Shown here: in pieces, positions 9,644 through 54,877 of the stretch | Layout: every line of letters starts with the position of its first letter | Position numbering within the stretch: the stretch's first letter is position 1 | Source: Stieleria neptunia | GTDB taxonomy: Bacteria > Planctomycetota > Planctomycetia > Pirellulales > Pirellulaceae | DNA length: 64,000 nucleotides | Assembly (NCBI RefSeq): GCF_007754155.1 | Contig: NZ_CP037423.1 | Span: forward strand, 930,001-994,000 | Reading direction: 5' to 3' | Notes under the pieces: generated by a model | Told to the model about the DNA's origin: nothing | The model's database searches: none | What the model saw: only the letters and a program-made list of their open reading frames with translations | Position numbers and translations under genes: made by a program

Positions 9644-10174
9644 ATGTCAGACCACGATCATCAACCCGTTCTTGCGGAGACGATTTCGGATGCTGCCAAG
9701 GCGATCGGCGTTCATGAACGAACGCTCAAGAGCTGGCTGGCCGAGGACGCGCCGCCGAAAACCGACGCCGGTTACGACGTCGATGCGATCAAGGCATGGA
9801 GGAAACTGAACCGCAAATCATCGCAATTCGAGTTTGACGATCCGGAGGAGTTCAAGCTTCGTATGGCGAAGGCGAAGCTGAAGGAGCAAGAGGGCAAGGC
9901 CGACAAGGTCTGCTCTGAAGCGGTCATCACGGAATTCAAACGGCAGTTGATGTCCGAAGGTCTCGTGCACAAATCTGCCGTGAACAACTACTTGGCGAGG
10001 GTTTTGTCGACGTGCCGCAATCAGATCCAAAAAATCCCCGCTCAATTGGCCGCCGGCTATGCCCCTGAAATCCAACGGGAACTGGAACGCGATTGTTCTC
10101 AGCGCATCGATATTGTTCTGCGTGCTCTGCGGACCCAGCTCGCCGATCTTCGCGAGATCGAACATGACGATTGA
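9644..10174 (+). CDS. Terminase small subunit, Nu1-like
   Basis: The 176-aa protein opens with a helix-turn-helix (TISDAAKAIGVHERTLKSWL, about residues 12-32) of the winged Nu1 type. A charged linker follows, then a helical part with KLRMAK-type heptads, the usual build of Nu1 small terminase subunits, which recognise packaging sites and recruit the large subunit. The neighbour encodes a GpA-type large subunit and the genes overlap by 11 bases, which supports the call. Confidence 0.8.
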   Translation: MSDHDHQPVLAETISDAAKAIGVHERTLKSWLAEDAPPKTDAGYDVDAIKAWRKLNRKSSQFEFDDPEEFKLRMAKAKLKEQEGKADKVCSEAVITEFKRQLMSEGLVHKSAVNNYLARVLSTCRNQIQKIPAQLAAGYAPEIQRELERDCSQRIDIVLRALRTQLADLREIEHDD

Positions 10175-27554: not shown

Positions 27555-30500
27555 ATGGCGGGTAAAGCTCAGCTGATCGTCGAACTCACCTCGGACGAGG
27601 AACGGCTGCTGAACGGGTTTCGCAAAGCCCAAGCGGCCGATGAGGAGCTGCGCGCGGGTCTGAAGAAGACCGGTGTCGAAGTCGACGCAATGGGCAAGGA
27701 AATGGTCGACGCGATGCTGAAGGCCGGCAACGCGACCGCGGCGACGACCGACAAAATTCTCAAGCAGCTGCGGGGCATCGGTCCCCAAGGGAAGAAGCTG
27801 TTCGGTGAACTGAGCCAACACGGCAAACAGTCCGTCGATGACATCGTCAAAAAGCTGGACGCGGTCGATCAGAAGCTCGCCGCCCAAGCGAGAAACCTGC
27901 TCGCCGAATGGGCGAAGACCGATAACGCCGACAAGTTCGAAAAGACGCGGTCGCAGCTCGAATCACTCGGCGGCGACTTCAAGGTCCTGGGGGCGGAGAT
28001 CAAGAAGGCGACCGAGATTCCCGAGGACCGGATCGGTGAAGCCCAAAAACTAGTCGCCGAGCTGAATCGGATCGATCCGAATTCCGCCAAGGCGATCGCT
28101 CGGGCGATGAAGCAGGCCAAGAAACACGTTGAGAAATCGCGTTTGGATCAATTCGTTTCGCAGTTGGCGGGAGGCACGAAGCAGGCGAGAGAGCTGGCCA
28201 AGGTCCTGGGCGTTGACATGAAGGAGTCGTCACTGGCGGCCGAGGGAGGCATCGAGGGGATCGCCCAAAAGATCATCGCGTTGCGGCCGGAGTTGAAACG
28301 CTCGGTCAACCGCTGGAAGCGGGACATGGCGGAGGCCGCGAAGTTCGGCGAAGGGAAGTACGAGCAAGCGTTGAACGCGCTGCGTGCCGGCGACCCCGTC
28401 AGCACGCAGGTGGCCGACAAGATCAAAACGCACTTGGTCAGTTCCGGCAAGATCGTCGAAAGAACGTTCAAAGACATGATCAAGCCGCTGGAACAGATTG
28501 ATCCGAAGCTGGCGGCGGAGGCGAAGAAGTGGCACAAGCATCTGCAAGATCACGAGAAGAAGAGCAACAACGCGTTCAGGCAGGCTTCGTCGTTCGCCCT
28601 GACCGAGATTGCATCGATCGCGGCGGCGTATGTCGGGGTGCAGGAGGCGGTTCAATTCGTGACGCAGGCGATGCAGGAACAGCAGGATGTGCTCAAGAAG
28701 GCCGCGGAGGAACAGCGCACACTGGCGTCCGCACAGCAAGAAGCTCTCAAGAACCTGGCGACGGTCAGCCAGTCGGACCGAACGGACTTGCTTCAGAATC
28801 TGGTTCCCGACACGGCGGTTGCTGCGGCGTTTCCCGATCTGGCCAACCTGACCAAGGCGATCGGTGACACTCGATCGGCCGGCGCATCGGTGGACCAAAT
28901 CAAACAGATCTTGCCCGTCGCGGCAAACTTGACCGCGCTGACGCCTGAGTTCGTCGATGAAACTTCGACCGCATTGGCCGATTCGATCCGTGCGACCGGG
29001 AATCAGAACGTGAAGGAGGTTGCGTCACAGCTGCTGCTGGCCGGGTCGGATGCCCGCATCGTGGATCCGTCGAAGTTGTTTCGGAATCTTCCGCCGGTCC
29101 AAGTTGCGGCGGCCAATTCGGTTTCCGATGCGTTGCGGAGCGAGTCGGCGTTGCAAGCGACGGCGGCGTTCACGGCAGTCACCCGCGCCGGTGCCGACTC
29201 CCAGGGCGATGCTTCGCAAACGGCTCAGATTCAAATCCAGGCTCGGTTGCGGTCGTTCTTCCAGGACCTGGGGAAGGACGCGACCGAGGCGACGGCGGAA
29301 CTGGCGAAGCTGAAGAAAGCGGATCCGCTGACAGCGGTGCAACGGAACACGTTCAACAAGCTGAGTCAAAACGAGGCCGATAAGGCCAAGAACGATCGCG
29401 AGATCGCACGTCTGCAATCAGAAATCGACGGCATCGAATCCAAGTTGGATGCCGGTGATCTGGACGCCGAGTCGCGGCGGGTGCTGGGGATCCAGAAGCG
29501 GGACCTGGGGCGTGAATTGGTTCGCGTCAGGCGTGTCGAGTTTTCCGACGACGATGCCGCCCAGTTGCAGGGATTGCGGGATCGGATCGGGGACAAGGAC
29601 CGGGCGTACCAGGAGAAGGTCGCGGAATTGGAGGGCACGATCGCGGCGGCCAGCATCAAGGGCTACAAGGGCGGACGGCCGGAATTGTTCTTTGATCAAT
29701 TGAAGGTGCTGCAGCAGAATCCCGCTCTGCGTGAAGCGTTCTTGAAGGACAAATTCGGGGAGCAGCGGTTCCGCAGTGCGACCGAGCAGTTTGTCACGGG
29801 CGGACAAGCCTACGACGACGCGATCGCGGCCTACGAAAACCTGCGCCGTCATCGGGGCTCGACCGCGTTGTTGGACGACAAGCTGCGAGAACTTCGGTTC
29901 GGAACGCCGCAGCTGGAACAAGCGTATTTGCAGCGGCAAGCCGAGACGGGGCAAGCGTTGCAGTTTTCGTACGATGCGATCGGGGCGCAACAGGGTGCGT
30001 TTCGTGAACAGTTGGCCGACGTGCTGCTGGAAACCCGCAATTCTGGACTGTTGAAGAATTTGAAACAGTCGTTCGAGGAGATTGGCGTCCGCAACGGCGT
30101 GCTATTGAGTGGCAGCGAAGGCCCCGAAGAAGTCTTTTCCGGGATCTTCCGTTTGGCGGAACGATCGCGGGATCTGCGGGCCGGCGGGATCACACCGGCA
30201 GAAGCGCCGCGGGCCCGACGCGTCTCGAATCTGATGGAGACCGCGTTCGCAACCTTGCAGTCGTCGGCGACGCTTGCGGAATCACCGGACGTGATTTCGG
30301 CGTTGTCCGATCGGGCCGGCCGTGTCGCCGGCGCGATTCAGTCGGGCGACTATTCGTTCCTGCAGGGCGATGCCGCGTCGGTGGTTTCAGCGAACAAGGA
30401 GGTGTTTCTGCGGCTGGCGTCGGTGTTGGAACGGATCGAAGCGTTGCAGGCCGAGCAACTCGGTGAAGCGCGAAAGACCGCCGAAAACACGAAACCGAAT

Positions 30501-30566
30501 CAACGCCGGCCGACCGATGCGACTCGACGTGCCGCCGGCGCGGCGGACCGGAGGCGGGCACCGTGA
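27555..30566 (+). CDS. Tail tape measure protein
   Basis: This is the longest late gene (1003 aa). It is overwhelmingly helical, with many Lys/Glu/Ala heptads and a hydrophobic patch at about 345-370 (ALTEIASIAAAYVGV), the usual tape-measure features. By the rule of about 1.5 angstrom per residue it would specify a tail near 150 nm, an estimate only. It overlaps the following gene. Confidence 0.8.
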   Translation: MAGKAQLIVELTSDEERLLNGFRKAQAADEELRAGLKKTGVEVDAMGKEMVDAMLKAGNATAATTDKILKQLRGIGPQGKKLFGELSQHGKQSVDDIVKKLDAVDQKLAAQARNLLAEWAKTDNADKFEKTRSQLESLGGDFKVLGAEIKKATEIPEDRIGEAQKLVAELNRIDPNSAKAIARAMKQAKKHVEKSRLDQFVSQLAGGTKQARELAKVLGVDMKESSLAAEGGIEGIAQKIIALRPELKRSVNRWKRDMAEAAKFGEGKYEQALNALRAGDPVSTQVADKIKTHLVSSGKIVERTFKDMIKPLEQIDPKLAAEAKKWHKHLQDHEKKSNNAFRQASSFALTEIASIAAAYVGVQEAVQFVTQAMQEQQDVLKKAAEEQRTLASAQQEALKNLATVSQSDRTDLLQNLVPDTAVAAAFPDLANLTKAIGDTRSAGASVDQIKQILPVAANLTALTPEFVDETSTALADSIRATGNQNVKEVASQLLLAGSDARIVDPSKLFRNLPPVQVAAANSVSDALRSESALQATAAFTAVTRAGADSQGDASQTAQIQIQARLRSFFQDLGKDATEATAELAKLKKADPLTAVQRNTFNKLSQNEADKAKNDREIARLQSEIDGIESKLDAGDLDAESRRVLGIQKRDLGRELVRVRRVEFSDDDAAQLQGLRDRIGDKDRAYQEKVAELEGTIAAASIKGYKGGRPELFFDQLKVLQQNPALREAFLKDKFGEQRFRSATEQFVTGGQAYDDAIAAYENLRRHRGSTALLDDKLRELRFGTPQLEQAYLQRQAETGQALQFSYDAIGAQQGAFREQLADVLLETRNSGLLKNLKQSFEEIGVRNGVLLSGSEGPEEVFSGIFRLAERSRDLRAGGITPAEAPRARRVSNLMETAFATLQSSATLAESPDVISALSDRAGRVAGAIQSGDYSFLQGDAASVVSANKEVFLRLASVLERIEALQAEQLGEARKTAENTKPNQRRPTDATRRAAGAADRRRAP

Positions 30567-30991
30567 TCAAAATCGACTCGATCGAATTCGATTTCAAACG
30601 CGGCGACATCCTGCTTCCGGAACCGGACGCGATCCCGTTTCGGTCCCAGTCGATCGAAGGGATCGGGATCCAGAAGACGCAGGAGCGGTCTCCCGGTTTC
30701 ACGTTGACCTTGATCCGGTTTGCGGCAGCGACGGCGTTGGTGGTCGAAAAGAGCACGATCGTGACGAAGATCGGCACGACGGTTTCGATCGTCGAACGGG
30801 TCAACGGTGCGGACATCAACTGGTCGGCACCGGGCGGTCACAAGTTTGTTGTCACCCAGGCCCGGATGGTCGACTGGAAAGTGATTCCGGGGTTCTATGG
30901 ATACCGCGGGACGACCTATGGTTCCTTCACGCCGGCGCTGCGGATGGTCAGTCAGTGGACGATGTACGCGATTGAGAACCCGGTCATCTGA
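30563..30991 (+). CDS. Distal tail-region protein
   Basis: The GTG start overlaps the tape measure stop. The 142-aa protein is beta-rich (FTLTLIRFAAATALVVEKST, HKFVVTQARM, FTPALRMVSQWTMY) and sits where distal tail or tail-tip hub adaptors are encoded. No known motif. Confidence 0.45.
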   Translation: MIKIDSIEFDFKRGDILLPEPDAIPFRSQSIEGIGIQKTQERSPGFTLTLIRFAAATALVVEKSTIVTKIGTTVSIVERVNGADINWSAPGGHKFVVTQARMVDWKVIPGFYGYRGTTYGSFTPALRMVSQWTMYAIENPVI

Positions 30992-33144
30992 TGCCAACCA
31001 TCAACCTGAACGGACTCGGCAACCCCGAGAACGCCGCCCTGCTGGTTTTCACGAAATCCGTCTGGTCGGACCCGTTCGTCTATCAGCCAAACGCCATTGT
31101 CGAAGAAGTGGTCTGGACGATCGCACCGGAGGTGAGTGCTGCGTCGCTGCAGTGGCGGTATGGGAACACGGTCTACGTGCCGGGCGCGACGGCCGCGGCG
31201 TCCGTGCCGAAAGTCACCACGCGGGGCTACTACGTCTTGATTCTGCAGCCGATCGGGCCGGGTCAATGGTTGTCGTGGCTGGGGTATGCGGACTATCCGG
31301 TGACGCTGGACGAAGACGACGTCAGCGGCATTCAGCGGATCCCCTGCTTTGGATTTGATCGTGCGTTGCAATACGCGACGATCACCTCGACCGTCCACGT
31401 CGACCCGGTGGATTCTGAAAAGTGGATTCGCAACGACATGGGCGCGACGTTCAACCGGGACACCAAGGGCGATCGCAGTTCCGCCAAGGTGAAGGTGCTG
31501 GATACGGATCCGACGCCGACGGTTTATGCGTTTGAGAATCCGGGTGTCGAGGCTCGCGAGTGGTGGTCCAGTCAAGACATCGCCCAGCACTTGATGACGT
31601 TCCATCTGCCGACGTCAAACTTCATTCCCGGATCGATTCCCTGGACGATCGTCGGTTTGGATCGATTGCCGGATTGGGACCACCCGAAGCTGGAGACGGA
31701 CGATCGATCGGTTCACGATTGTCTGACCGAGTTGACGCCGTCGGATCGGATGTTGGGCTGGCGAGTGATGCCGGAAGTGACGTTCCCCGGCGCGGATCCG
31801 ATCACCAACGTTCCGACAATCAACGCGATCAACATCGAGTTTTTCACTCGGGCTGCATCGCCGATCACGTTGCCGGGTGTGACCAATCTGTCGGCGAACC
31901 ATGACATCCAGACGTGGACGCTGGACGAAGACCGTTTGTCAGACGCGACGATCGACGAAGACGACTCCGACATGGTCGACCAGGTGATCGTCCGCGGTCC
32001 GCGTGAGGTCGCCGTGGGGACGTTCTATTGGTCGGATGATTGGGTGGCCGGCTGGACGCCGACGGAATTGTCGGAGTACGTGTCGGCGTACTCCGGAGAG
32101 ACTTGGTGGTCGGCCGGGACGCTGGCCCAGCAGCGGGAATGGAATCAGTTCTTTCGGGATCAGCCCAAATACAGCGACATCTATCGGACGTTTCCGATCC
32201 GCGATGACTGGGATGGCCAGGTCAACGGCGAACCGCTGTTCTGGAAAGCGGATCCGGGCGACGACGACTACATCCCGTATCTGGGGAATGTCCAATTCAT
32301 GCAGCGATTGCCGCTGTTCAAGGGCATCGACTATTCCGGCGACATTGCGACGGTTGACGAGCAACGTGGCCGGCGGACGATGCCGATCCTGGTCTTCATC
32401 GAGGAACCGGGGCAGCCGAACAAATACCGCCGGCTGCAAACGGTGTTTACCGAGTTCGGTTTGAGTCCTGTAAAGCATCCCAACGCGCTGGAGTACGATT
32501 TGAGAGTGGTTTCGTACTTCGATCGCGGGCCAGGGTTTCGCATTGAAGTCGACGGTGCGCCGCAACACGCTCATCGACCATCGTTCACCGGGAATGATGC
32601 CGACCCCGAAAAGACGAACCCGAAAATCTGGGGCGAACTGGATAGCGAGACGATGATCATCACCGCGGCAATGGTGGGCGATCGCCGACCGGAAGTCCGT
32701 TTCCCGGCCACCGTGTCGGCGGACTTCGTGCGCAAGCGGTACATCGTGCTGGACCATCCGGGTCTGCAGCACGTCGAGATCGCTGCCGGCACGGTTGTCG
32801 GCTACGACTATCAAGGAGCGCTGGAAACGAGTGACGGCGGGACGCTGCGGGATCCGTTTGACATGCTGATGGCACTCGGAACGCTGGCGGCGGAGCGATT
32901 CTTGACGCCCCGCACGACGGCGCGGATCCGCACCGGCCGGGCGCTGAATATCGAAACGGGATCTTTGATCGCGTCGATCAACGGCACGGCGGTCGATGCG
33001 GTGATTAGCGAAGTGCGGATTTCGACACCGGTGGTCGAGTCGGATTCGCCGCCTCCATATGTGATGGACATCACCGCGATCGACAACGATCTGGACATCA
33101 CGAGTCTGATCGCACGTGTCCCCGTTCCGGAGGTGAACCAATGA
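30991..33144 (+). CDS. Tail tip/baseplate hub protein
   Basis: The 717-aa protein starts within one base of the previous stop. Size, position after the distal protein and mixed beta/alpha sequence with many Asp/Trp/Tyr suggest a central tail-tip (hub or gp27-like) protein. Around residues 140-215 there is a segment (RNDMGATFNRDTKGD…) with features of structural hub proteins. The family is not firmly recognised. Confidence 0.5.
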   Translation: MPTINLNGLGNPENAALLVFTKSVWSDPFVYQPNAIVEEVVWTIAPEVSAASLQWRYGNTVYVPGATAAASVPKVTTRGYYVLILQPIGPGQWLSWLGYADYPVTLDEDDVSGIQRIPCFGFDRALQYATITSTVHVDPVDSEKWIRNDMGATFNRDTKGDRSSAKVKVLDTDPTPTVYAFENPGVEAREWWSSQDIAQHLMTFHLPTSNFIPGSIPWTIVGLDRLPDWDHPKLETDDRSVHDCLTELTPSDRMLGWRVMPEVTFPGADPITNVPTINAINIEFFTRAASPITLPGVTNLSANHDIQTWTLDEDRLSDATIDEDDSDMVDQVIVRGPREVAVGTFYWSDDWVAGWTPTELSEYVSAYSGETWWSAGTLAQQREWNQFFRDQPKYSDIYRTFPIRDDWDGQVNGEPLFWKADPGDDDYIPYLGNVQFMQRLPLFKGIDYSGDIATVDEQRGRRTMPILVFIEEPGQPNKYRRLQTVFTEFGLSPVKHPNALEYDLRVVSYFDRGPGFRIEVDGAPQHAHRPSFTGNDADPEKTNPKIWGELDSETMIITAAMVGDRRPEVRFPATVSADFVRKRYIVLDHPGLQHVEIAAGTVVGYDYQGALETSDGGTLRDPFDMLMALGTLAAERFLTPRTTARIRTGRALNIETGSLIASINGTAVDAVISEVRISTPVVESDSPPPYVMDITAIDNDLDITSLIARVPVPEVNQ

Positions 33145-33440
33145 GCGGACCACGGCCGGGATTTCCATTCGAAGCGATCGCGACGAGCGGGGCGGCGGCG
33201 TTTGAAGAAGCGGTCGGTCCGGCTGGTGAAGACAAGTTTCATTTCTTCAGCGCGGTCCCGCTCGAATACACCGAATCGAATGTCAGTGCGGGTGTGGTTC
33301 AGTGGCAGTACGGAAAGCAAAGTGCCGGAGATGTGATCCGAACGCGAAACGCGATCAACGTGGACATCCAGCCCACCGATCGGATCGTGATGATGCTGGG
33401 TGCCGATGGTCTGGGCATCGTTCTGGTCTTACTGTGCTGA
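33141..33440 (+). CDS. Small tail-tip-region protein
   Basis: The 99-aa protein is coupled to the hub gene through an ATGA overlap. It includes a VQWQYGKQSAGDVIR segment resembling the LQWRYGNTVYVPG region near the N-terminus of the hub protein, suggesting a shared small domain. Confidence 0.45.
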   Translation: MSGPRPGFPFEAIATSGAAAFEEAVGPAGEDKFHFFSAVPLEYTESNVSAGVVQWQYGKQSAGDVIRTRNAINVDIQPTDRIVMMLGADGLGIVLVLLC

Positions 33441-33449
33441 GGATGAACG

Positions 33450-34796
33450 ATGGCTGACCGATTGAGCGGCAACTGTTGCCAGGAAGCGGAGTGCGCGGCG
33501 AATTCCTATGACACGATCGGCAAGTGGTCGACCGGAGTCGGTGGCACGATCACGGATGCCGGCATGTTTTGGGTCACGCCGAATGAGCAGATTCAGACGT
33601 TCAACGTGGATGGCGAAGTCAACCCGGCGTTCTTTGTCACGGGGAAGGAGGCGTGGGAGATTCGGTTCTACATGCGGGGACAAGCGACGTTCACGATCGA
33701 TTCGGTTGAGTTGGTGATCGACACCGATGCCCAGACGATCACGGTTGACGGCCACACGGATTCAATCGGGCAGTTTGAGCGGCACTTGCCGTCTGACGAT
33801 CTGTTCTTGTTTCGATTGCGTGTCACTCCCACGCATGCGTATCTACTCGGATATGGAAACTATCAGGTCGGAACAGTGTTCGGAGCGGAATCCAATGCGC
33901 ACTCAATCCTGACCGTTGACCGATCAAGCGATGCGCCAGATTCGTTTTCGGTGGTCTGGACCGACGCGACGATCGGAGGATTTACGATCAGCGAGTCAAC
34001 GGTGACCGTGACCGACGACTACGTCCCGTCGTTTGAGCGTCTTTGCTGGACGGAGCCATCTCTCGAGTGCCCGTACTTCATGGTCAAGCAGATGACGCAG
34101 AATCATCTGTACCAAGACGATCCGGGGTACAACCGCGATTACTACGTCGCAGACATCACTTCGACAGGATGGGACCCGTGGGGATGGATCTTTTCTGATT
34201 GCATGGTTCCAAGTCCGATCGCATGGGCATCCGGAACGGTGCTGACGGGGCCGCCTTCATGGCCGTTCCCTGACGCGCCCGACCCGACGGAAACCTTGCA
34301 GACCCATCAATTTTCAAACCCGTGCGGACAAGGCGGAAGCTTTGTCAGATGGGTCGACGAGGGCGGCGGGTCTTATTCCTACAAGACCATCGACCTTGCT
34401 GTCTACGATGCGGGGTTCACCTATGCGGCACAGCTCGCTCTGACGTGGCCGACCCCGACGTTCTCCCAGCCGTACCCAAAACCGCATTACACCGCGAGCT
34501 TTTCCACGCAGTTCACCCACATCAACCAGTTTTCGTGTGGGGTCGGCAACAACTGCAATCTCAACATCGTGTCCGACGGCTCCGCGTCGGCTGACATCGC
34601 GTGCAATGACTTGCAAAACGGGTTTACCCTGAGTGTTTCCGGGACGCTGTCGTACGATGCAAACGATGACGGCGTCCCAGTCGACCCTCCCGATGAAATG
34701 GATTTCCAAATACGCACCTCGTGCACGATCGAGACCAAGACGCCTGACGAAATTCTTGGCTACTACGGGACTGTGGGAGGAACCTGGACGGTATGA
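33450..34796 (+). CDS. Cys-rich tail fibre/tip protein
   Basis: The 448-aa protein is beta-rich with about a dozen cysteines in the outer parts (CCQEAEC near the N-terminus; CGVGNNCNLN, DIACND later), unusual for cytoplasmic proteins and suggestive of extracellular exposure or metal binding. It probably forms a receptor-binding or tip protein. Its stop overlaps the next gene's ATG, so the last gene of the operon is coupled to it. Confidence 0.5.
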   Translation: MADRLSGNCCQEAECAANSYDTIGKWSTGVGGTITDAGMFWVTPNEQIQTFNVDGEVNPAFFVTGKEAWEIRFYMRGQATFTIDSVELVIDTDAQTITVDGHTDSIGQFERHLPSDDLFLFRLRVTPTHAYLLGYGNYQVGTVFGAESNAHSILTVDRSSDAPDSFSVVWTDATIGGFTISESTVTVTDDYVPSFERLCWTEPSLECPYFMVKQMTQNHLYQDDPGYNRDYYVADITSTGWDPWGWIFSDCMVPSPIAWASGTVLTGPPSWPFPDAPDPTETLQTHQFSNPCGQGGSFVRWVDEGGGSYSYKTIDLAVYDAGFTYAAQLALTWPTPTFSQPYPKPHYTASFSTQFTHINQFSCGVGNNCNLNIVSDGSASADIACNDLQNGFTLSVSGTLSYDANDDGVPVDPPDEMDFQIRTSCTIETKTPDEILGYYGTVGGTWTV

Positions 34797-35986
34797 CTTC
34801 GCGAAAGTGTGTCGGTTGCGGTCGGACATTCGCAGCGGATGTGGCAACCAAATTTTCTTGTTGCGGGCAACCCATCCGGGTCGACGGCAACTCCAGGCAC
34901 CAGGTCGCCGCAAACGCATCACCACGGATCAGTCGCGCCACGAGAGCGATCGCCGCATGCGTGAAGTGTGAGCACTACACGACATCTGACGGCAAGAGCG
35001 GTTGCGGGCTTTTCCGGGGGTCACTCTGCAAGTCGATGTCACTGATCGCCGACGGCGAGGGCTGCCACGATCACGCCAATCCGCGGTTTGATCCTGACTG
35101 GGTGACCGACCATCACTTCTACGGTCCATGGATCACGTACGAAGAATTGCGGCGAGACATCGCGGGCTTTGCGTCACGCCTATCGGTGATGCAATTCGAC
35201 GCGATCGCCGGCGTGCCGCGGTCGGGGATGATGGTCGCCAGCGAGCTGGCCGTTCGGTTGGGTCTGCCGCTGTACAGCCTCGAAGAATCGGGACTGCATC
35301 GATTGGCGACCGGATTGCGACTGCGGAACGTCGAACTGAAAGCCGGCAAGCTGTTGGTGATGGAGGACTCTTCTGCGAGTGGGAGGTCGATCAACGAAGC
35401 GAAGCAGTGGTTGGGCGACCGGCCGAATACGGTGTTTGGAGCGATCTATTCCACGACGCGAGCGCTCGGCGGGATTGATATGCATCACCGCACGCTGGAA
35501 TTGGCCCACTGGTTCGAATGGAATTTGCTTGGTAATCCGTACTTGATGACCACGATTCCGATCGGCACGGATTTCGACGGGGTGCTCTGTCCCGATTTCA
35601 CGCCGGAAGAGGATGACGATGGATTGCGATACCGCAGGCGGATGACCGAGATGCCGTGTATCCGGCATCCAGGTGTTGCCGAATTGCCGTGCATCATCAC
35701 GGCGCGGCTGGAAAAGTACCGTGAGTTGACCGAACAGTGGCTTGCCGAACGGCGAATCAAGTATCGCCGCTTGGTGATGGGGCCATGGCGGACGCAGAAG
35801 GAACGTTCGATGGTGGACTTGGGTCAGTGGAAGGCGCAGCGTTGCCGCGAGTTGGGACTCGACATTTTTATCGAGTCTTGCACCGTCCAAGCCAAGCGAA
35901 TCGCAAACGTCGCCCGTGGCATTGCCGTGGTCTGTCCGGAGGCGAAGACCACGTTCATTCGCGACCGGGTGAGTGTTGGTGTTTAG
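34793..35986 (+). CDS. Cys-rich domain + phosphoribosyltransferase + HAD phosphatase fusion
   Basis: The 397-aa protein shows three parts. Residues 1-95 hold cysteine clusters (CVGC, CC, CVKC, then CG, C, C) like a metal-binding domain. Residues about 115-245 are a type I phosphoribosyltransferase: FDAIAGVPRSGMM and the PRPP loop LLVMEDSSASGRSI (187-200). Residues about 250-395 are a HAD domain: motif I GTDFDGV (D260, D262), motif II IITAR (T303), a Lys near 337 and an acidic end FIESC (361). The chemistry would be a PRPP-dependent transfer plus dephosphorylation, with substrate unknown. It is the last gene of the virion operon and is coupled to the fibre gene. PRTase-HAD pairs are known in metabolite-making modules, but a fused copy with a Cys domain in a phage tail operon is not something I recognise. 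Confidence 0.75.
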   Translation: MTSRKCVGCGRTFAADVATKFSCCGQPIRVDGNSRHQVAANASPRISRATRAIAACVKCEHYTTSDGKSGCGLFRGSLCKSMSLIADGEGCHDHANPRFDPDWVTDHHFYGPWITYEELRRDIAGFASRLSVMQFDAIAGVPRSGMMVASELAVRLGLPLYSLEESGLHRLATGLRLRNVELKAGKLLVMEDSSASGRSINEAKQWLGDRPNTVFGAIYSTTRALGGIDMHHRTLELAHWFEWNLLGNPYLMTTIPIGTDFDGVLCPDFTPEEDDDGLRYRRRMTEMPCIRHPGVAELPCIITARLEKYRELTEQWLAERRIKYRRLVMGPWRTQKERSMVDLGQWKAQRCRELGLDIFIESCTVQAKRIANVARGIAVVCPEAKTTFIRDRVSVGV

Positions 35987-36691: not shown

Positions 36692-36850
36692 TTATTCCTC
36701 TTCGTCGTCGCCCTCCCGGTAGTTACCGTTGATTGCGTCGTCTACGTCGCGCTCGAGCTCTTCAGCTACTTCACGCGTTTCCGGCATCGTTTCGGGCGCG
36801 TCGATGATGTGACGCAAGAATACCGAAACGCGTTGCAGTAGATCTTTCAT
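36692..36850 (-). CDS. Small acidic phage protein
   Basis: The ATG at 36850 has a good ribosome site (AGGGAGA) and overlaps the previous stop (ATGA); a longer frame upstream belongs to the neighbour. The 52-aa product has a short hydrophobic helix (LLQRVSVFLRHIID) and a strongly acidic second half ending DDEEE. Small acidic phage proteins sometimes mimic DNA or inhibit host enzymes; that is only a possibility here. Confidence 0.6.
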   Translation of the reverse strand: MKDLLQRVSVFLRHIIDAPETMPETREVAEELERDVDDAINGNYREGDDEEE

Positions 36851-37587
36851 TGTTCTCCCTTGAATGCGAAACCGTTGACGCGGGCGCGCGACTTGGCCGC
36901 GTTCGTTCCTTTCAACCGCAAACCAACGACCACGCCGCGCCCGTCGATTGACGGAATTCGGATATCGTGTTTGTCCCCATCGATCACCGGCCATTGTCGG
37001 CCGTGAATGCGGACCGATTCGGGTAGGTTTCCGATCCGTCCGGATTGCGGATGATAATCGACGTCGAACACTTGGGCCACATTCCCGCCGCGGCGCAAGA
37101 AGCTTGCGATGGTGGCGGGGTGGTGCTTTTCATGCCGGCTAAACGTCAACGCGTAGTTCGCGGGGAGCTCCCCCGCCAAGTAATCGCGGAAGCGCGAGCG
37201 TATTTTCGTGTAATCGTAGAATTGCACGGTCGGCCATCGTTCGACTAGGTCAAACCATTCTAGATCACTCGCGACGTTCAACCGGACCGCCGGCTTCACG
37301 CGTTTACGCTCCGCCAATCGCACTAGATTGACGATATCGCGGTTCAATTGGTCGATGAACGATCGGCGATGGCCGAACAACCATTGCGTGTCGCGCAGCG
37401 CCGCATGACGCGACGTCGACGAAACACGCAACCCGGCAAACCAGAGGACACACGACGCGGCGCAACCGTTCGACGATCCGGCGCAAACGTTGTGCCCGGA
37501 CAGATTGTGCGGCGCGAGTGTCAAACCGGCCGACAAGTAGGGCAAACCGGCTAGCTTTTCAAGCTTGGCATTGGTGCGTAACAACAT
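36847..37587 (-). CDS. GP88-like phage protein
   Basis: ATG 37587 overlaps the preceding stop (TAATG); 246 aa. Cysteines cluster early (HNVCAGSSNGCAASCVLW). Later come RLNVASDLEWFDLVERWPTV and FYDYTKIRSRFRDYL, then YALTFSRHE and GGNVAQVFD. This pattern resembles phage gene-product-88-type proteins (Cys cluster, R-x-N/S-GD-like, FYxYTK), whose function is unknown to me. Its coupling to a RadC protein may hint at DNA or nucleotide work. Confidence 0.6.
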   Translation of the reverse strand: MLLRTNAKLEKLAGLPYLSAGLTLAPHNLSGHNVCAGSSNGCAASCVLWFAGLRVSSTSRHAALRDTQWLFGHRRSFIDQLNRDIVNLVRLAERKRVKPAVRLNVASDLEWFDLVERWPTVQFYDYTKIRSRFRDYLAGELPANYALTFSRHEKHHPATIASFLRRGGNVAQVFDVDYHPQSGRIGNLPESVRIHGRQWPVIDGDKHDIRIPSIDGRGVVVGLRLKGTNAAKSRARVNGFAFKGEQ

Positions 37588-38375
37588 TAGGCCGCCTCCC
37601 GAATGCTGGTTGCGTTTGCGCCACCGATCACAATATGATCGAGAACGTTGATACCCAACATTTTGCCGCATTCTGTCAATCGGTCCGTCACGGCCCGATC
37701 TTCCCGGCTAGGCGTGGTATCGCCGGAGGGGTGATTGTGAACCAGGATGATGGCCGAAGCGCTCGCAGCGATGGCCGCGCGGAACACTTCCCGCGGGTGC
37801 ACCAACGACGCGTCAAGAGTGCCACGCGTCACGCGTACCAATCCGGTCGGCCGGTGTTTCGTGTCGAGAGTGACAATCGCGAATTCCTCGCAATCGCAAC
37901 GGTCCGCGAAGTAGTCGCGCAGCAATGCCGGCAGGGTATCGCATGCGATGCGGGTTGATGTGATCGGCGTTTCATAGCGTCCCGATCCCTCTTGAATCTT
38001 GGCCAAACGCGTTTCAAACACGGGGAGCGCGTCGGTTTGCTTGTCGCGTTGTTTGCGTAGTTCGACGTTCAATAGCACGTTGCGCCGATTCCATGCGGCA
38101 TAGCCGCGGATCCGGGACGCGTTGTTAGCCGGGGGCGCTTCGGTGATTGTGGGGAGCTCCCCCGTCGCATTTTGGTAGGCGATTCGGAACAACGTCGCGT
38201 CGTTGTCCTCTTCCAGGTACACAATCGAATCACGCGTGTAACTGAATTGCGTGATTGAGTCTTCAAGCCGAAGCGCCACAATGTCGGCCATCGGGACGCG
38301 TAGCCACGCGTGGGACGGGTCAGAAAAGAATCGGTAGCGGCGCTTCAAAAGACGCTTTCGGGTATCATCGTTCAC
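37587..38375 (-). CDS. RadC/JAB-domain protein with an N-terminal phage domain
   Basis: The start is GTG 38375 (GAGG ribosome site 9 bases upstream), giving 262 aa; the frame runs on to 38423. The N-terminus (RYRFFSDPSHAWLRVPMADI, then FSYTRDSIVYLEEDNDATLF, residues about 14-65) is a small domain found alone in phages and plasmids. The C-terminal half is RadC-like: HPREVFRAAIAASASAIILV and the JAMM motif HNHPSGD (about 216-222). RadC proteins are common on mobile elements; activity is unproven. First gene of a coupled leftward operon. Confidence 0.8.
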   Translation of the reverse strand: MNDDTRKRLLKRRYRFFSDPSHAWLRVPMADIVALRLEDSITQFSYTRDSIVYLEEDNDATLFRIAYQNATGELPTITEAPPANNASRIRGYAAWNRRNVLLNVELRKQRDKQTDALPVFETRLAKIQEGSGRYETPITSTRIACDTLPALLRDYFADRCDCEEFAIVTLDTKHRPTGLVRVTRGTLDASLVHPREVFRAAIAASASAIILVHNHPSGDTTPSREDRAVTDRLTECGKMLGINVLDHIVIGGANATSIREAA

Positions 38376-38848
38376 GGTTTGCAACCTCTGTCGTTGCGGA
38401 CAAGTCGACCGGTCGGGCTGCAATCCCTTCCGGTCGGCGTTTCTTTACACGCCGCGCGGCGTGTTTCCGCGGGCATCATCGGCCGAATCTGGCCCCCGTC
38501 AACAACGCCCCACGCCGCGGAAAACACGGCGAATCCCAAGCAATGCCGGCCATTCCCACCAAGCACCGAACGGGTCCTTCCGAGGGGGCGGGGGTGGCCA
38601 TCGCGGGTTCCGCCTCGAATGCCTTTCCCTGGCACCTGCACAAGAGATCATCGCCACCACCACCACCTTTCTTGGAAACACGCGAAAGTCGCAACCATTG
38701 CGAGGAGTTGGTGAGCGATTTATCATCGCAGGGGTGCCCTATGGCAAACCGAACGCTATTCGGGTTTAACAACTGCCAATTTCCCCAGTCAGTCCCTGGT
38801 CCAGTGGGCTGATGAAGGCGACGAAGTCCCGGCTATACTTTGGTCTCC
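38376..38848. promoter_or_regulatory. Divergent control region
   Basis: These 473 bases separate the leftward RadC operon from the rightward ECF gene and must contain both promoters. A perfect 18-bp palindrome ACACGCCGCGCGGCGTGT is at 38447-38464, and an element CCGGTCGG is repeated just upstream of it. A TATACT (38834-38839) before the ECF start could be a -10 box, without a good -35. Confidence 0.5.
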
Positions 38849-39415
38849 ATGCCTGATGTTACTCGAATCCTCTCCGATCTAGAGCACGGCGATTCTGCGG
38901 CTGCAGAGCAGCTGTTACCCCTCGTGTACGACGAACTGAGAAAGTTGGCCGCCGCCAAACTTTTGCATGAGAAACCAGGACAAACGCTGCAGGCCACGGC
39001 CCTGGTGCACGAGGCGTACGTTCGACTTGTGGATCAGAGCACACCTCCAAATTGGGACGGACGAGGGCATTTCTTTTCCGCAGCTGCCGAAGCTATGCGG
39101 CGCATTCTTGTTGAACAGGCTCGACGAAAAAAGGCAAAAAAACGAGGTGGAAATTTGGCTCGGATAAGTTTGGATCTCGCTTATCCTGCTGCGGCTGAGC
39201 CTACCTACGACTTGTTGGCACTTGATGACGCCTTGCGGGGCCTTGAGGCGATCGACGAGCGGAAAGCGGCAGTAGTGCGATTGCGGTACTTCGCCGGGCT
39301 TACAATACCGCAGGCCGCAGCCGCCTTGGGCATTTCGACGTCAACTGCCGATAATGACTGGGCTTACGCCAAGAGTTGGCTGCGAATCGAGCTGAACGGT
39401 CGCAAGAATTCTTAG
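38849..39415 (+). CDS. ECF-type RNA polymerase sigma factor, planctomycete type
   Basis: The start is taken as ATG 38849 (188 aa). It has the region 2 pattern ([52 protein letters not shown]) and region 4 ([20 protein letters not shown]) of the ECF family abundant in planctomycetes, which are usually encoded next to a Ser/Thr kinase, as here. It would direct transcription of a small regulon. It is AT-richer than the phage genes. Confidence 0.85.
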
Positions 39416-39517
39416 TCGGACAACAAAAATCTGACTTTGTCTGGGTGATTCGAAGTTAGAAGACGCATTGAATCGTGGGAATCGATAAACGCACGAATTG
39501 AATGTTGGAGCGCAGAC

Positions 39518-42244
39518 ATGGCAGAAGACCTGAACGAAGAAATCATCTTTAACACTGCCCGTAAGATCGCGTCGACGGAAGCAAGGGAGGAGTATATTGA
39601 GCAAATTGTGGGCACTGATGTGGCTCTTCGTGAACGGATCGATGAACTACTTAGTGCTTATTCCGCAGAGTCTGAGTTTCTCGATGCGCCACTGGCAGGA
39701 GCTATGCCCACCCTCGAAGCATCCGAGCTCCAGGAGAGACCAGGGGTCGTTATCGGAAACTACAAGCTCATGGAGCAGATTGGCGAAGGAGGTTTTGGAC
39801 TCGTTTTTGTGGCGGATCAGCAACGACCAGTGCGCCGCAACGTCGCTTTAAAGGTCATCAAACCCGGGATGGACTCCCGAGAAGTTATCGCCCGCTTTGA
39901 GGCTGAGCGACAAGCGCTCGCGCTTATGGAGCATCCAAACATAGCCCAAGTTCTTGATGCCGGTACAACCGGTTCTGGCCGACCCTATTTTGTGATGGAA
40001 TTGGTCAAAGGAATTCCGATTACCGAGTATTGCGACCAACAACAGCTGCCGACGAATCAACGTCTCGAACTATTTGTCTCAGTCTGCCAAGCGGTGCAGC
40101 ACGCTCATTCAAAGGGAGTGATCCATCGCGATCTTAAACCATCAAACATCTTGGTAGCGCCACATGATGGAGTTCCGGTTGTAAAGGTCATCGACTTCGG
40201 TGTCGCCAAGGCGCTTGGACAGCAATTGACCGAAAAGACTATATACACTCGCTTCTCCCAAATGATCGGAACTCCACTGTATATGAGCCCGGAGCAGGCG
40301 GAAATAAACGCTCTGGATGTGGATACGAGAAGTGATATTTACAGCCTCGGCGTGCTACTCTACGAGCTACTCACCGGGACGACGCCTTTCGACCGTGAAC
40401 GGTTTGCGACAGCTGCATTTGACGAAATCCGACGGATAATCCGAGAGGAAGAGCCACCCAAGCCGAGTGTGCGTTTGAGCACATTCCGCGAGACACAACC
40501 GAACGTCGCAAAACAGCGGATGGCAGAACCGCTCAAGTTGTCATCCTTTGTAAAGGGCGACCTAGATTGGATTGTGATGAAATCGCTAGAGAAGGATCGT
40601 TCACGACGCTATGAAACGGCTAGCGCATTTGCGGCCGATCTACAACGATTTTTACAGCACGAACCGATCGAAGCGCGTCGTCCGTCTGCAAGCTACCGAC
40701 TGCGGAAATTCGCACGCCGTCACCGCGTCGCGGCTTCGACCATTGCTTGTATCGCAGCAACGTTGGTTGCGGCAACGTTGGTGAGCACGTGGCTTGCAGT
40801 GCGTGCGACTCGGGCAGAGAAAGTTGCACAGGAATCAGAACGGCAATTACTTGAGCTCATGGAAGATCTAGCAAATTCCTACGTGGAACAAGGTAAGAAT
40901 GAGCAGGCAGAAAAACTGTTTTCCAGCTTGCTCAATCGACGACCTGCATCACCATCTGACACTATATCAGGTAATTCCTCGAGGCTGCGGCTTGGGCTCG
41001 CCAAGGCCCGCTTAGGCCTGGGACGTGTCCAAGGCGCTCTAACGCTTTACCAGAAGACAAAGGAAACGCTGGGGCCAGATCATCCAATTTGTGTACAAAT
41101 GGCCGACGAAATTGCAACGGCCGCAATGCGCGTGTATTGGGAGCTGTATGGTGAAGGTGTCGGGACAGATGGCGTCGGTCCGAATACCGACGATATTGAT
41201 GAGCTAGTGAAGCTTGCGAACATTGCGGTCGACTTGAAACCAAGTCGTTGGACGTGGTTGACGCTTGGCACGGCGAAGATGAGCGCTGAAGACTGGCAAG
41301 CAGCTCGAGTAGTGCTAGAAAACTCTGTTTCTCAGGGGGTCTCGCCCTGGCATCTGCTGAGCTTGGCAACAACGCAAGAGAAGTTGGGAAACCATGACAA
41401 GGCGATGGACTATCTCGCAGCCGCCTCTGGACTAGTGCCAGGCGATGAAGATGACAGTCTCACAAAATTGTATCGAGCGACCCTCAATGAGCTCGGCTTG
41501 ACAAAGAATCCTTTTGAAAGCTGGACATCGTCAGAATTCATTAAGAGCTACGATCGATTAATTGTGGTTCATGAAGGCATCGCGTTACTGCACTGGTATC
41601 GCGGTAGCCGACATGGACTCCTGCAGGATTGGGATAGTGCCATGCGCGACATGACACTCGCTGCGAGCTTAACGGGGGACAATCCCCAAGACCTTTGGAA
41701 CATCGGACGGAGTTTGGGCGTACTTCAAGTCCGACAGGGCGACCTGGAAGCGTATGGCAAAACTTGTCATCGGTTGCAAAAAGTTATCAGAAACGCGAAT
41801 CCGTGGGATGGCTGTAATCTCATTGAATTGTGTACTTTGAATCAATCGTCACCAATCGACTTGGATGAATTACATCGGATTGCTGAACAGTTTACTAGCT
41901 CAAGCGCGGGATTTCGGTTGGCCGCTGGAATGTTGGCATATCGGCGTGGGGAGTTCGCGAGTGCGATTGATGATTTGCCCATCGACTATGGTGCACGAAC
42001 ACCGATTTGCCTCGCATTCCGGGCGATGTCACTTTACAAGTTAGGCGATCACGCGGGGGCGCAAGCGACTTTGATGGAGGCTTATGAAATGATGGAAAAG
42101 TATCTCCCAACAATCGACGGGCCACCAATTAAGATCCCGCGTGGTAACAAAGACCGATTGCACGTCTGGTGCTCAAACCAATTGGCACTGGATGAGGCGT
42201 CAAAGTTGATTGCAGCCGATCCTGTAGTTTCGCAGGTTGACTGA
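39518..42244 (+). CDS. Membrane Ser/Thr protein kinase, PknB-like, with TPR-like tail
   Basis: The 908-aa protein has an N-terminal helical region (1-70) with the LxERIDELLSAY pattern of such kinases. The kinase domain runs about 79-345: GEGGFG (89-94), ALKV Lys (112), HRDLKPSN (203-210), DFG (226-228), then GTPLYMSPEQ. A TM segment lies at about 404-426. The remaining 480 residues are alpha-helical TPR-like repeats, cytosolic or periplasmic depending on topology. It forms the standard ECF/kinase pair with the preceding gene. All catalytic motifs are intact. Confidence 0.92.
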   Translation: MAEDLNEEIIFNTARKIASTEAREEYIEQIVGTDVALRERIDELLSAYSAESEFLDAPLAGAMPTLEASELQERPGVVIGNYKLMEQIGEGGFGLVFVADQQRPVRRNVALKVIKPGMDSREVIARFEAERQALALMEHPNIAQVLDAGTTGSGRPYFVMELVKGIPITEYCDQQQLPTNQRLELFVSVCQAVQHAHSKGVIHRDLKPSNILVAPHDGVPVVKVIDFGVAKALGQQLTEKTIYTRFSQMIGTPLYMSPEQAEINALDVDTRSDIYSLGVLLYELLTGTTPFDRERFATAAFDEIRRIIREEEPPKPSVRLSTFRETQPNVAKQRMAEPLKLSSFVKGDLDWIVMKSLEKDRSRRYETASAFAADLQRFLQHEPIEARRPSASYRLRKFARRHRVAASTIACIAATLVAATLVSTWLAVRATRAEKVAQESERQLLELMEDLANSYVEQGKNEQAEKLFSSLLNRRPASPSDTISGNSSRLRLGLAKARLGLGRVQGALTLYQKTKETLGPDHPICVQMADEIATAAMRVYWELYGEGVGTDGVGPNTDDIDELVKLANIAVDLKPSRWTWLTLGTAKMSAEDWQAARVVLENSVSQGVSPWHLLSLATTQEKLGNHDKAMDYLAAASGLVPGDEDDSLTKLYRATLNELGLTKNPFESWTSSEFIKSYDRLIVVHEGIALLHWYRGSRHGLLQDWDSAMRDMTLAASLTGDNPQDLWNIGRSLGVLQVRQGDLEAYGKTCHRLQKVIRNANPWDGCNLIELCTLNQSSPIDLDELHRIAEQFTSSSAGFRLAAGMLAYRRGEFASAIDDLPIDYGARTPICLAFRAMSLYKLGDHAGAQATLMEAYEMMEKYLPTIDGPPIKIPRGNKDRLHVWCSNQLALDEASKLIAADPVVSQVD

Positions 42245-43722: not shown

Positions 43723-44870
43723 AACGAATTCCCACGGTGTGTGTGGGTGTGTTTTGGAAAGCATCCAAGGGCCGCTACTTTCTGCGATGGACGGATCCGT
43801 TCACGGGCAAACGGCGGTCGGAGCAAACCGAAATACTCACCCGCAACAAACGCGGCCGATCGCAAGCCGATCGGTTGGCGGTTGCCAAAGAACAGGAGTT
43901 GAAGAAGTCGCTGCGGCGAGACGACTTCAGCTGGGATGCGTTCGAAGAGAAGTACAAGCAGGAGCATCTGAAGTTCACTTCGACGGAGAACCAGCAGAAA
44001 TGGAATGCGGTCGTCAGGTTTCTTCACGAGGCGGCCGCGGAGAGCCGGCAAGTTTATGGAGAGCTGATGCTTTCGGACGTCAAGCCGCTGTTCTTGTCCG
44101 AGGTCGAGACGTTGATTCGATCGAAGCTGTCCAGCGGCAGCGTATCGTCTTACGTCGCGACGCTGCGAAGTGGACTCTCTTGGGCGGCTTCGATGGAAAT
44201 GATGGATCCGTTGCCGCGTCGTCGCAGTCGCGGTCGGGTCGAACACGTCCTGCCGGCGATGCGATTGAATCCCATCAGCAGGGAGGAACTGGACAAGATG
44301 AAGGACGTCACCGACAAGGTCGTCGGCAAGCGTTACGGCCAGTCGGTCAAGGACTACCTGGAGGCGTTGTGGCTTTCTGGGTGTCGGATGTGCGAGCCGC
44401 TTCAGATTCACGCGACGCGGCGTAATTGCCATCGGCCGTTGAATCTGGCGGGGGAGCATCCGAAGTTTTGCTGGGTCAACACCCAGAAGAACCGACGGGA
44501 TGTGATCGCCAGGGTGACCAAGGACTTTGCGGCCGACGTGGAGCGCCGGGTGGCCGACGGCGGTTTTCTGTATCAACCGAGTTGCGAGACGGGGTTGATC
44601 GAGCGTCGCACGTCGCTGTCCAAGGTCGTTGCGGCAATCGGCAAGAAGGCCGACGTTTGGGCCGAAGAGGGCAAGACGGCGACGGCCAAGCATTTTCGGT
44701 CGTCGTTTGTCACGCGGTGGTCGATTCGGGGGATGCCGATTGCCCTGATTCAGGAGATGGTCCGGCACCGCAGCCGGTCGACGACGGAGAGGTATTACGT
44801 CGGTGACCTGAGTGGGAAAATCGATTTCGATGAATCGAAATTTGGTGACCAAAGTGGTGACCAAGCTTGA
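43719..44870 (+). CDS. Tyrosine recombinase, prophage integrase
   Basis: The 383-aa protein has an N-terminal arm-type DNA-binding region, a core-binding region (about 70-160) and the catalytic domain. Visible motifs are SGCRMCEP (first Arg), KHFRSSF (His-x-x-Arg), IQEMVRHRSRSTTERYY (His, then the nucleophilic Tyr). It lies 46 bases from the 3' end of tRNA-Leu, pointing to it, as expected when the tRNA 3' end serves as attachment site. It has an AGGAG ribosome site. Confidence 0.92.
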   Translation: MKRIPTVCVGVFWKASKGRYFLRWTDPFTGKRRSEQTEILTRNKRGRSQADRLAVAKEQELKKSLRRDDFSWDAFEEKYKQEHLKFTSTENQQKWNAVVRFLHEAAAESRQVYGELMLSDVKPLFLSEVETLIRSKLSSGSVSSYVATLRSGLSWAASMEMMDPLPRRRSRGRVEHVLPAMRLNPISREELDKMKDVTDKVVGKRYGQSVKDYLEALWLSGCRMCEPLQIHATRRNCHRPLNLAGEHPKFCWVNTQKNRRDVIARVTKDFAADVERRVADGGFLYQPSCETGLIERRTSLSKVVAAIGKKADVWAEEGKTATAKHFRSSFVTRWSIRGMPIALIQEMVRHRSRSTTERYYVGDLSGKIDFDESKFGDQSGDQA

Positions 44871-44915: not shown

Positions 44916-44999
44916 TACCGAAGGAGGGACTCGAACCCTCACTCCCTTGCGGGAACTGGATTTTGAATCCAGCGCGTCTGCCAATTCCGCCACTTCGGC
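44916..44999 (-). tRNA. tRNA-Leu (CAA), prophage attachment target
   Basis: The cloverleaf folds with an 84-nt length and a long variable arm as in Leu tRNAs: acceptor GCCGAAG, D arm, anticodon stem CTGGA with loop TTCAAAA (anticodon CAA), variable arm with CCCGCAAGGG, and T-arm GAGGGTTCGAGTCCCTC. The 3' strand of the acceptor is CTTCGGT, so base 72 is T against G1 instead of the usual C. CCA is not encoded. The integrase lies on the 3' side. Confidence 0.95.
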
Positions 45000-53936: not shown

Positions 53937-54019
53937 GGAGGATAAGCGAATTGGTGAGCGGCCTCACTGGAACTGAGGTACCCCGTAAGGGGCTGCGGGT
54001 TCGAGTCCCGTGTCCTCCG
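53937..54019 (+). tRNA. tRNA-Ser (GGA)
   Basis: Acceptor GGAGGAT pairs with GTCCTCC; anticodon stem CCTCA, loop CTGGAAC, anticodon GGA; long variable arm TACCCCGTAAGGGGCT; T-arm GCGGGTTCGAGTCCCGT. 83 nt without CCA. Confidence 0.95.
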
Positions 54020-54031
54020 CTGTCGTCAAAG

Positions 54032-54165: not shown

Positions 54166-54877
54166 TTACAAAGTCTGCTCGGCGTCGACGCCGGAACGCC
54201 CGCCGTCGCCTCCAAGCAGGTTCAACTGATCCATCTTGCGACACGATTCGTCGTCGCTGAGGTGGTCGTAGTGTCTTACCATTGCGCTATCGGAATGTCC
54301 AAGCCATTGAATCACCATTCGTTCGGGAACCCGTTCGTTTGCACAGCGGCTGCAGACGTAGTGACGAAGACTATGCAGACGCCCGTCTTCAAAACTCTTT
54401 TGTCCGGGGAACGTTTTCGGAAATCGGTCGGACAGTGGCGTGATCACCTCGCTAACCAAAATGTTCCGAACCGTGTCAGGCTTTAACCGGCCTCTGCGCG
54501 GCCCTCTGAATACATACGGACCGTTGTGATCCAATGAATATGAATGCCCACTGATCAGCTCGAAGGCTTGTCGGTAGGCGTATTTCGCGTTGCGAGTTTT
54601 CCAGCCCCGGCGCCTGCGCAATCGATGCGATGGTTTGCCCCGCGTTTCTGTCGTACCTCCCGGCACGCCAACCTTCGCGGAGGTCCCACACGTCCAAGTA
54701 ACCAAGCAACTTTTCTTCGTTGATTCGCCGCTCTTGAATACCGAGACTTTCTCGCGCCTCGAAGCGTAGCTTTGTCAGATCGGATTGAAACTCCTTGCTG
54801 GGAGCACGAGGGTTGTAGATGAGAAGCGGAAAGTCGACCAAATCATCGAATTCCCGCCAATCGCAGCTACTGAGCAT
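54166..54877 (-). pseudogene. Frameshifted tyrosine integrase remnant
   Basis: Two minus-strand frames together make one integrase. The first (from 54877) carries the middle part and ends its natural reading near DLREGWRAGRYDRNAG-QTIASIAQA; the second continues with WKTRNAKYAYRQAFELISGH and ends with SLRHYVCSRCANERVPERMV, WLGHSDSAMVRHYDHL, the His-Arg, His and Tyr motifs. The frame changes near 54600-54615 by a one-base indel. The N-terminus is probably also missing. It points towards tRNA-Ser, so it marks an old integrated element. Confidence 0.8.

Follow-up and report, generated by a model that had tools for sequence, protein, structure and literature searches.

PRT-HAD and its place in the window

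At the end of a putative tail operon in Stieleria neptunia lies a gene for a fusion of a phosphoribosyltransferase (PRT) with a HAD phosphatase, which will be referred to here as PRT-HAD. It was studied within a 64,000-nucleotide stretch of contig NZ_CP037423.1 (positions 930,001 to 994,000, forward strand), called the window throughout and numbered from its first letter, where it forms an intact open reading frame (ORF) of 397 residues. Judged from its sequence, it is a real and conserved enzyme of a phage lineage, and the most daring interpretation compatible with the evidence is that it ribosylates the virion. The gene and its parts are as follows.

34793-35986, + strand: PRT-HAD gene, 397 residues
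34793-35122, + strand: N-terminal Cys-rich region typical of phage-clade members (residues about 1-110), with a low-confidence structure
35123-35530, + strand: type I PRT domain (residues about 111-246), with GVPRSG pyrophosphate loop at 140-145, EDSSASG phosphoribosyl pyrophosphate (PRPP) motif at 191-197 and HWFEWN at 239-244
35555-35965, + strand: HAD phosphatase domain (residues about 255-391), with D260xD262, T303, K347 and E361

Both catalytic signatures are present. In an alignment (A2) of the window protein with 95 of 120 listed homologues (out of 621; long fusions and some others were removed by hand), that of the type I PRTs appears as Glu or Asp at 191 with Asp192 (96/96), Gly197 (96/96) and Arg143-Ser144-Gly145 (94/96), and that of the HAD family (DxD, Thr or Ser, Lys and the acidic motif IV) as D260, D262, T303, K347 and E361, each in all 96 rows; the HAD domain also has a small insert with DDDG at 274-277 and Y280. 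A first-pass annotation of this stretch had described a three-part protein of Cys domain, PRT and HAD with its motifs intact, and this holds good, since the catalytic residues of both domains are conserved across the 96 rows and both the PRT fold and the HAD domain found matches.

In 6-oxopurine PRTs a catalytic Asp sits in the PRPP loop and a Lys contacts the 6-oxo group. Both are lost here: at the position of A195 an Asp or Glu is found in 0/96 rows of A2, and at that of T221 a Lys in 3/96. A standard 6-oxopurine base is thus unsupported as acceptor; a small-molecule product made from some other base is taken up below as a rival case. The PRT fold is compact and XGPRT-like, with purine and xanthine PRTs as its nearest relatives in a structure search; from these (XGPRT, 1vdm, 4z1o) PRT-HAD differs not only at the catalytic-Asp and 6-oxo-Lys positions but also in being fused to a HAD domain and in having relatives that lie in a glycan-gene context. 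Matches in a viral structure library, which were either single-domain or long and poor, were not used.

The features that define the setting of the gene are these.

33450-34796, + strand: upstream tail-operon protein, 448 residues, with CCxxxxC near its N-terminus and 11 Cys; candidate acceptor or scaffold
27555-34796, + strand: putative tail operon, a tape-measure-sized ORF of 1003 residues followed by ORFs of 142, 717, 99 and 448 residues
17154-18872, + strand: phage portal protein (phrog_21, E=5.4e-77)
10059-12158, + strand: terminase large subunit gpA (PF05876, E=3.2e-51)

The terminase large subunit and the portal protein mark the region as a prophage. The ORFs of the operon are tightly packed, no overlap or gap between them exceeding 9 bases, and PRT-HAD comes last, overlapping the end of the 448-residue gene by 4 bp, so that its earlier description as the final gene of a putative tail operon, coupled to a Cys-rich protein, is confirmed. 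The word ‘tail’ is to be read as putative because it stands on gene order and size, Pfam and PHROG scans of these ORFs having given no match with E below 0.01.

Relatives of PRT-HAD and their neighbours

A total of 621 proteins match the PRT-HAD of the window at E≤1e-3, relatives being encoded by 453 confirmed stretches in GTDB genomes and by 106 in IMG/VR. Between the window gene and its copy in TBK1r (Stieleria magnilauensis), with which the region is collinear at 85-92% DNA identity, nonsynonymous divergence (dN) is 0.037 and synonymous divergence (dS) 0.463 (dN/dS about 0.08, third positions accounting for 95 of the 132 differences); PRT-HAD is under purifying selection. In view of the relatives, the conserved catalytic residues and this ratio, it is not a chance fusion. 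Two ways in which the first description might have failed, through missing catalytic residues or a random joining of domains, were thus checked, the residues being present and the relatives ruling out the second. The novelty claimed for the fusion needs correcting, as many bacteria carry a PRT-HAD and its two-step logic is known.

The search for the same fusion in other phages that had been proposed as a check succeeded in IMG/VR but not in INPHARED, where tblastn with the window protein and the relatives L016 and P0109 (limits 1e-5, 1e-3 and 1e-3) found no match among 50,697 phage records. As a positive yardstick, tblastn with the window protein picked up 41 plasmid records, at 30-34% identity in the rows listed, so relatives at that level are detectable by this method; in this analysis the phage lineage therefore appears solely in prophage-like regions and on metagenomic viral contigs.

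The tree was built from 106 rows (104 of the 160 loci L003-L162, the window gene, and L002, a second copy from the host genome), two of which, being identical to others, were dropped. It splits at 100/100 into a phage clade of 46 rows (40 viral, four from genomes that are all planctomycete, and two from the host genome including the window gene) and a mainly cellular clade of 58 (43 genome rows and 15 viral), the bootstrap being unsettled and some long branches unsure. Counts of phage-clade loci use 45 loci, with L085 replacing the window.

Members of the phage lineage typically have the Cys-rich N-terminus and follow structural genes, and part of the lineage is paired with a Cys-cluster protein. 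Of the phage-clade proteins (45 loci), 39 have a recognisable motif, and in 33 of these at least four Cys precede the PRT domain; the corresponding figure for the other clade (59 loci) is 4 of 52. Gene starts are mechanical longest-ORF calls, with the result that some starts and N-terminal Cys counts are wrong. The idea that this N-terminus is a module common to other enzymes was dropped: a search with that of L016 gave 43 proteins of 195-352 residues, and all four of those inspected carry a PRT domain at least in part, while a search with that of the window protein matched P0001 only. Pfam matches to Erv1/Alr on some N-termini, below cut-off in all but one, were not used. In the planctomycete assembly G007, two single frames (L168, 606 residues; L176, 686 residues) hold two tandem PRT-HAD units, possibly for two successive ribosylations or two acceptors; L178, from the same assembly (711 residues), looks similar but has one recognisable RSG motif in a pattern search.

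Among 128 neighbours of cellular relatives, from 32 GTDB loci, Glycos_transf_2 is matched 24 times, Glyco_trans_1_4 19, Wzy_C 17 and Polysacc_synt 12, with multiple matches per protein possible; 34 of 80 loci, mostly on long contigs, had been picked by hand (two lacked a clean ORF), and as many belong to Bacteroidota and related groups the counts are not independent. Four loci were fetched from the 41 plasmid records, and three (two from Paracoccus, one from Bosea) are polysaccharide clusters by annotation. The cluster holding PRT-HAD on the Bosea plasmid (L164) adjoins CRISPR-associated genes.

Within 7 kb of PRT-HAD at the 45 phage-clade loci, sulfotransferase-like genes (a set defined by an iterated hidden Markov model, HMM) occur at 17, radical SAM genes at eight, GT8-like genes at seven and pyruvyltransferase-like genes at six, with at least one of these at 23 (the seed loci L002, L016 and L042 being counted). 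At six loci of a 17-row subclade (L011, L013, L015, L016, L038 and L042, three of them nearly identical) an ORF of 124-135 residues is followed by PRT-HAD and then by GT8-like and sulfotransferase-like genes, and five of the six also have a pyruvyltransferase-like gene; in L016 the sulfotransferase (4.5e-5) and pyruvyltransferase (5e-10) both score above the Pfam cut-off. In a sample of 147 of 198 listed viral neighbours, from 48 of 80 viral loci, four match a PHROG galactose-3-O-sulfotransferase, ten match Methyltransf_24 (including those in L021, L025, L034 and L062) and one, read as the gene preceding PRT-HAD in L004, matches UDP-galactopyranose mutase. GT8 also stands ahead of PRT-HAD in a single polypeptide: P0081 passes the Pfam cut-off (E=5.5e-6), P0066 (0.0036) and P0068 (0.0055) fall below it, and L006 shows the same fusion by HMM. 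The link to Ter-type metabolite modules that had been drawn earlier is not borne out, since the genes recognised beside relatives are of polysaccharide or glycan-decoration type.

A mucin-like acceptor was considered and rejected, Ser/Thr runs of at least eight being found at 3 of the 45 phage-clade loci and in none of the five tail ORFs of the window that were examined. Upstream of PRT-HAD on the viral contig L004, the ORF at 4669-5508 has an N-terminal Cys cluster and then a long poly-Ser stretch (51% Ser+Thr), and is possibly a glycan-bearing structural protein.

Proposed function and its alternatives

PRT-HAD is proposed to be a bifunctional enzyme that decorates glycans or virions: ribose-5-phosphate from PRPP would be passed to an acceptor, either a glycan or a tail component, and then dephosphorylated, as in characterised ribofuranosyltransferases. 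This reading can be given a probability of roughly 0.55. It draws on the predicted fold, the catalytic residues, purifying selection, the phage clade, the place after tail-type genes and the glycan neighbourhoods of many relatives, from which we infer PRPP use, acceptor class, ribosyl product and virion location. The PRT domain would take PRPP and transfer ribose-5-phosphate, with loss of pyrophosphate, to an acceptor hydroxyl; the acceptor would not be a 6-oxopurine base and would most likely be a sugar chain that is carried by, or will be attached to, a phage tail protein, for instance the upstream 448-residue protein. The C-terminal HAD domain would then remove the 5'-phosphate, leaving an uncharged ribosyl residue open to capping or extension, and the Cys-rich N-terminus may keep the enzyme attached to its substrate or to partners. 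Of the two targets named in the first-pass annotation, a virion protein is thus plausible, while DNA is unsupported by any recognised neighbour.

The founding paper on gPRT-PRP enzymes is reportedly that of Kelly et al. 2022. PRT-HAD has both activities by fold, similar cellular loci and, in some members, fusion to a further glycosyltransferase, and it is for these reasons that the same chemistry as in the gPRT-PRP/CriT-CrpP enzymes is proposed here; that it works like them is supported, and membership of their family is not claimed. PRPP transfer followed by dephosphorylation is established for Bcs3 (PMC10299916), Cj1432 (PMC12096443) and K. pneumoniae O4/O7 (PMC11231755), and the two-step logic is known in polysaccharide ribofuranosyltransferases (also PMC11127046). 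In common with those enzymes, a transferase of PRT-like fold and a HAD phosphatase share one polypeptide, and the sampled cellular relatives sit in polysaccharide-rich loci, although the window gene itself lies in a tail operon; the product expected by analogy would be a ribosyl residue on a glycan. However, the domain order is PRT then HAD here and HAD then transferase in Bcs3 and Cj1432 (PMC12096443); CriT has three helical bundles and pairs D680 with E818, whereas PRT-HAD has a compact XGPRT-like PRT with an adjacent E/D-D pair; and HAD motifs I and II are about 40 residues apart, as compared with a CrpP cap comprising residues 393-490 (PMC10299916). The Cys-rich N-terminus is a further feature that sets the phage members apart. 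It is because of the domain order, the compact PRT and the small HAD insert that PRT-HAD is not filed with these enzymes. CriT/CrpP and the T. composti enzyme were not among the rows shown in structure or PDB sequence searches, an absence that means little as there was no positive control.

Among phage proteins, the polyvalent-protein PRTs likewise place a PRT domain in prophage proteins but are fused to MuF and other domains (PMC5512222), whereas in the present gene the PRT is joined to HAD and lies at the tail end. Sugar-transfer genes of mycobacteriophage Maravista have been taken to suggest that a virion protein is decorated, but in the accessible part of that source they are called glycosyltransferases and no PRPP-dependent step is described. 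Searches of openly licensed papers listed no report of a phage PRT-HAD enzyme or of PRPP-dependent virion modification.

A number of observations weigh against the proposed decorating function. No recognised glycosyltransferase stands beside the window gene, the next recognised genes being GP88-like and RadC genes on the other strand, and glycan-type genes are absent within 7 kb of its nearest relatives L003, L083 and L085. Such neighbours are uneven in the phage clade, being found at 15 of 17 loci in one subclade (L036 to L016) that does not include the window gene and at 8 of 28 elsewhere. Some of the labels are themselves weak: GT8 matches in L016 (0.0043) and L042 fall below the Pfam cut-off, and of eight sulfotransferase-like neighbours submitted to Pfam one is clear (L016), one weak (L024) and six have no sulfotransferase match. 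Among cellular relatives, eight single neighbours gave five polysaccharide-type genes, one carbamoyltransferase (Haloarcula) and two without a match, and the fourth plasmid locus (Rhizobium beringeri) is of mixed content. All neighbourhood counts, cellular and phage alike, are raw, with no background rate beside them, and the nearest structures to the HAD domain are polynucleotide 3'-phosphatases (T4 Pnkp / Pnkp1).

A more ambitious version of the decorating function can be put forward only tentatively: a tailed-phage lineage would ribosylate its own tail, using an XGPRT-derived PRPP enzyme of separate origin from CriT/gPRT that is made with a Cys-cluster tail protein, and in related phages would build a ribose-containing virion glycan with sulfotransferase-like, radical-SAM, methyltransferase and glycosyltransferase partners. 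The odds of this version and of the general one were both lowered because glycan-type neighbours concentrate in a subclade without the window. If true, phages would spend PRPP, a nucleotide precursor, on virion decoration as well; glycan phosphoribosyltransferases would have arisen more than once, this being a second origin; and this would be the first PRPP-dependent virion modification, as far as the openly licensed literature searched shows. A family that some sources name ‘hypoxanthine’ or ‘orotate’ PRTs would also gain a testable function, and the Cys-cluster protein with PRT-HAD would serve as a gene-pair marker for phages with decorated tails.

The best-surviving alternative, albeit an unlikely one, is that the PRT domain couples PRPP to a free base of some unusual kind and the HAD domain serves as a nucleotidase, giving a small nucleoside-like metabolite. 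The purine/xanthine affinities of the PRT fold fit this, as do the hypoxanthine and orotate labels, and nucleotide production has been proposed for Ter PRTs and considered for phage PRTs (PMC5512222). However, the 6-oxopurine recognition residues are lost (which says nothing on a non-purine base), the recognised neighbours of relatives are glycan genes, and some members are fused to GT8.

Rather less probable is direct ribosylation of a tail-protein side chain, such as Cys, Ser or Thr, that carries no glycan beforehand. It would account for the lack of a recognised glycosyltransferase in the window operon and for the Cys-cluster pairing: outside the 17-row subclade, a Cys cluster opens the same-strand ORF (at least 100 residues) upstream of PRT-HAD in 18 of the 25 cases, and among the other ORFs on that strand 13 of 339 start with one (Fisher p=6e-17); the window pair fits this pattern. 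Within the subclade, however, the figures are 1/16 and 7/246; the criterion was chosen post hoc with the sequences already viewed, the loci are related and hence not independent, and the control cannot separate an enzyme partnership from a general trait of tail-end genes in these phages. The place of cellular relatives amid polysaccharide genes also counts against it.

A role in nucleic-acid modification or repair, which the resemblance of the HAD domain to polynucleotide-kinase 3'-phosphatases might suggest, is improbable. The HAD fold serves many substrates; as compared with T4 Pnkp / Pnkp1, PRT-HAD is fused to a PRT and lacks a kinase domain, and an invariant E361-S362 replaces the usual motif IV pair. 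The neighbour families shown include no recognised kinase or ligase. The odds were raised slightly because eight of the 147 viral neighbours match phrog_2675, a ‘DNA methyltransferase’, but those sampled are Methyltransf_24 in Pfam, which leaves the substrate undecided. A ShosT-type anti-phage toxin or defence effector carried by the prophage is hardly credible, even though ShosT chains appear weakly in a profile search (E=0.19) and L002 matches the PADLOC ShosT model (E=0.013), as PADLOC models match neither the window protein nor L016 or P0109 up to E=0.1, PRT-HAD closes a tail operon, overlapping the preceding gene by 4 bp, and nothing resembling an antitoxin was recognised as its partner. 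The accessible part of the DefensePredictor paper (PMC13092281) holds nothing specific to the PRT-HAD fusion.

The second copy and the wider region

The second PRT-HAD copy in the 10.98-Mb host genome (L002) is 34% identical to the first and also lies at a tail end. The order there is a 579-residue ORF, ORFs of 340, 283 and 198 residues (the last with a Cys cluster), PRT-HAD, a 173-residue sulfotransferase-like ORF and a radical-SAM ORF. It belongs to a prophage-like region (L002, L180) spanning chromosome positions 5775000-5811000, with an integrase match at 5810201-5810734; this region looks decayed because the portal match, about 10 kb from L002, has two in-frame stops. In the host family PRT-HAD is matched in 10 of 149 genomes, and in the genus in two of seven listed (its own included), a patchy occurrence that fits a mobile gene. 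On the TBK1r chromosome, L083 and L084 have identical ORF coordinates around PRT-HAD and diverge from about 3.3 kb downstream, which suggests a duplicated prophage.

Downstream of PRT-HAD, at 36847-38423 on the opposite strand, are the GP88-family (PF17338, E=2.9e-43) and RadC (PF04002, E=2.5e-39) genes. Phage-integrase matches (E=1.8e-5 and 4.4e-8) lie at 44472-44798 (+) and 54253-54414 (-), and between the tail operon and the first of them the ORFs at 38840-42244 resemble, by eye, a host sigma factor and kinase. The integrase matches adjoin tRNA-Leu and tRNA-Ser genes, at 44916-44999 (-) near the first and 53937-54020 (+) near the second, which are possible attachment sites.
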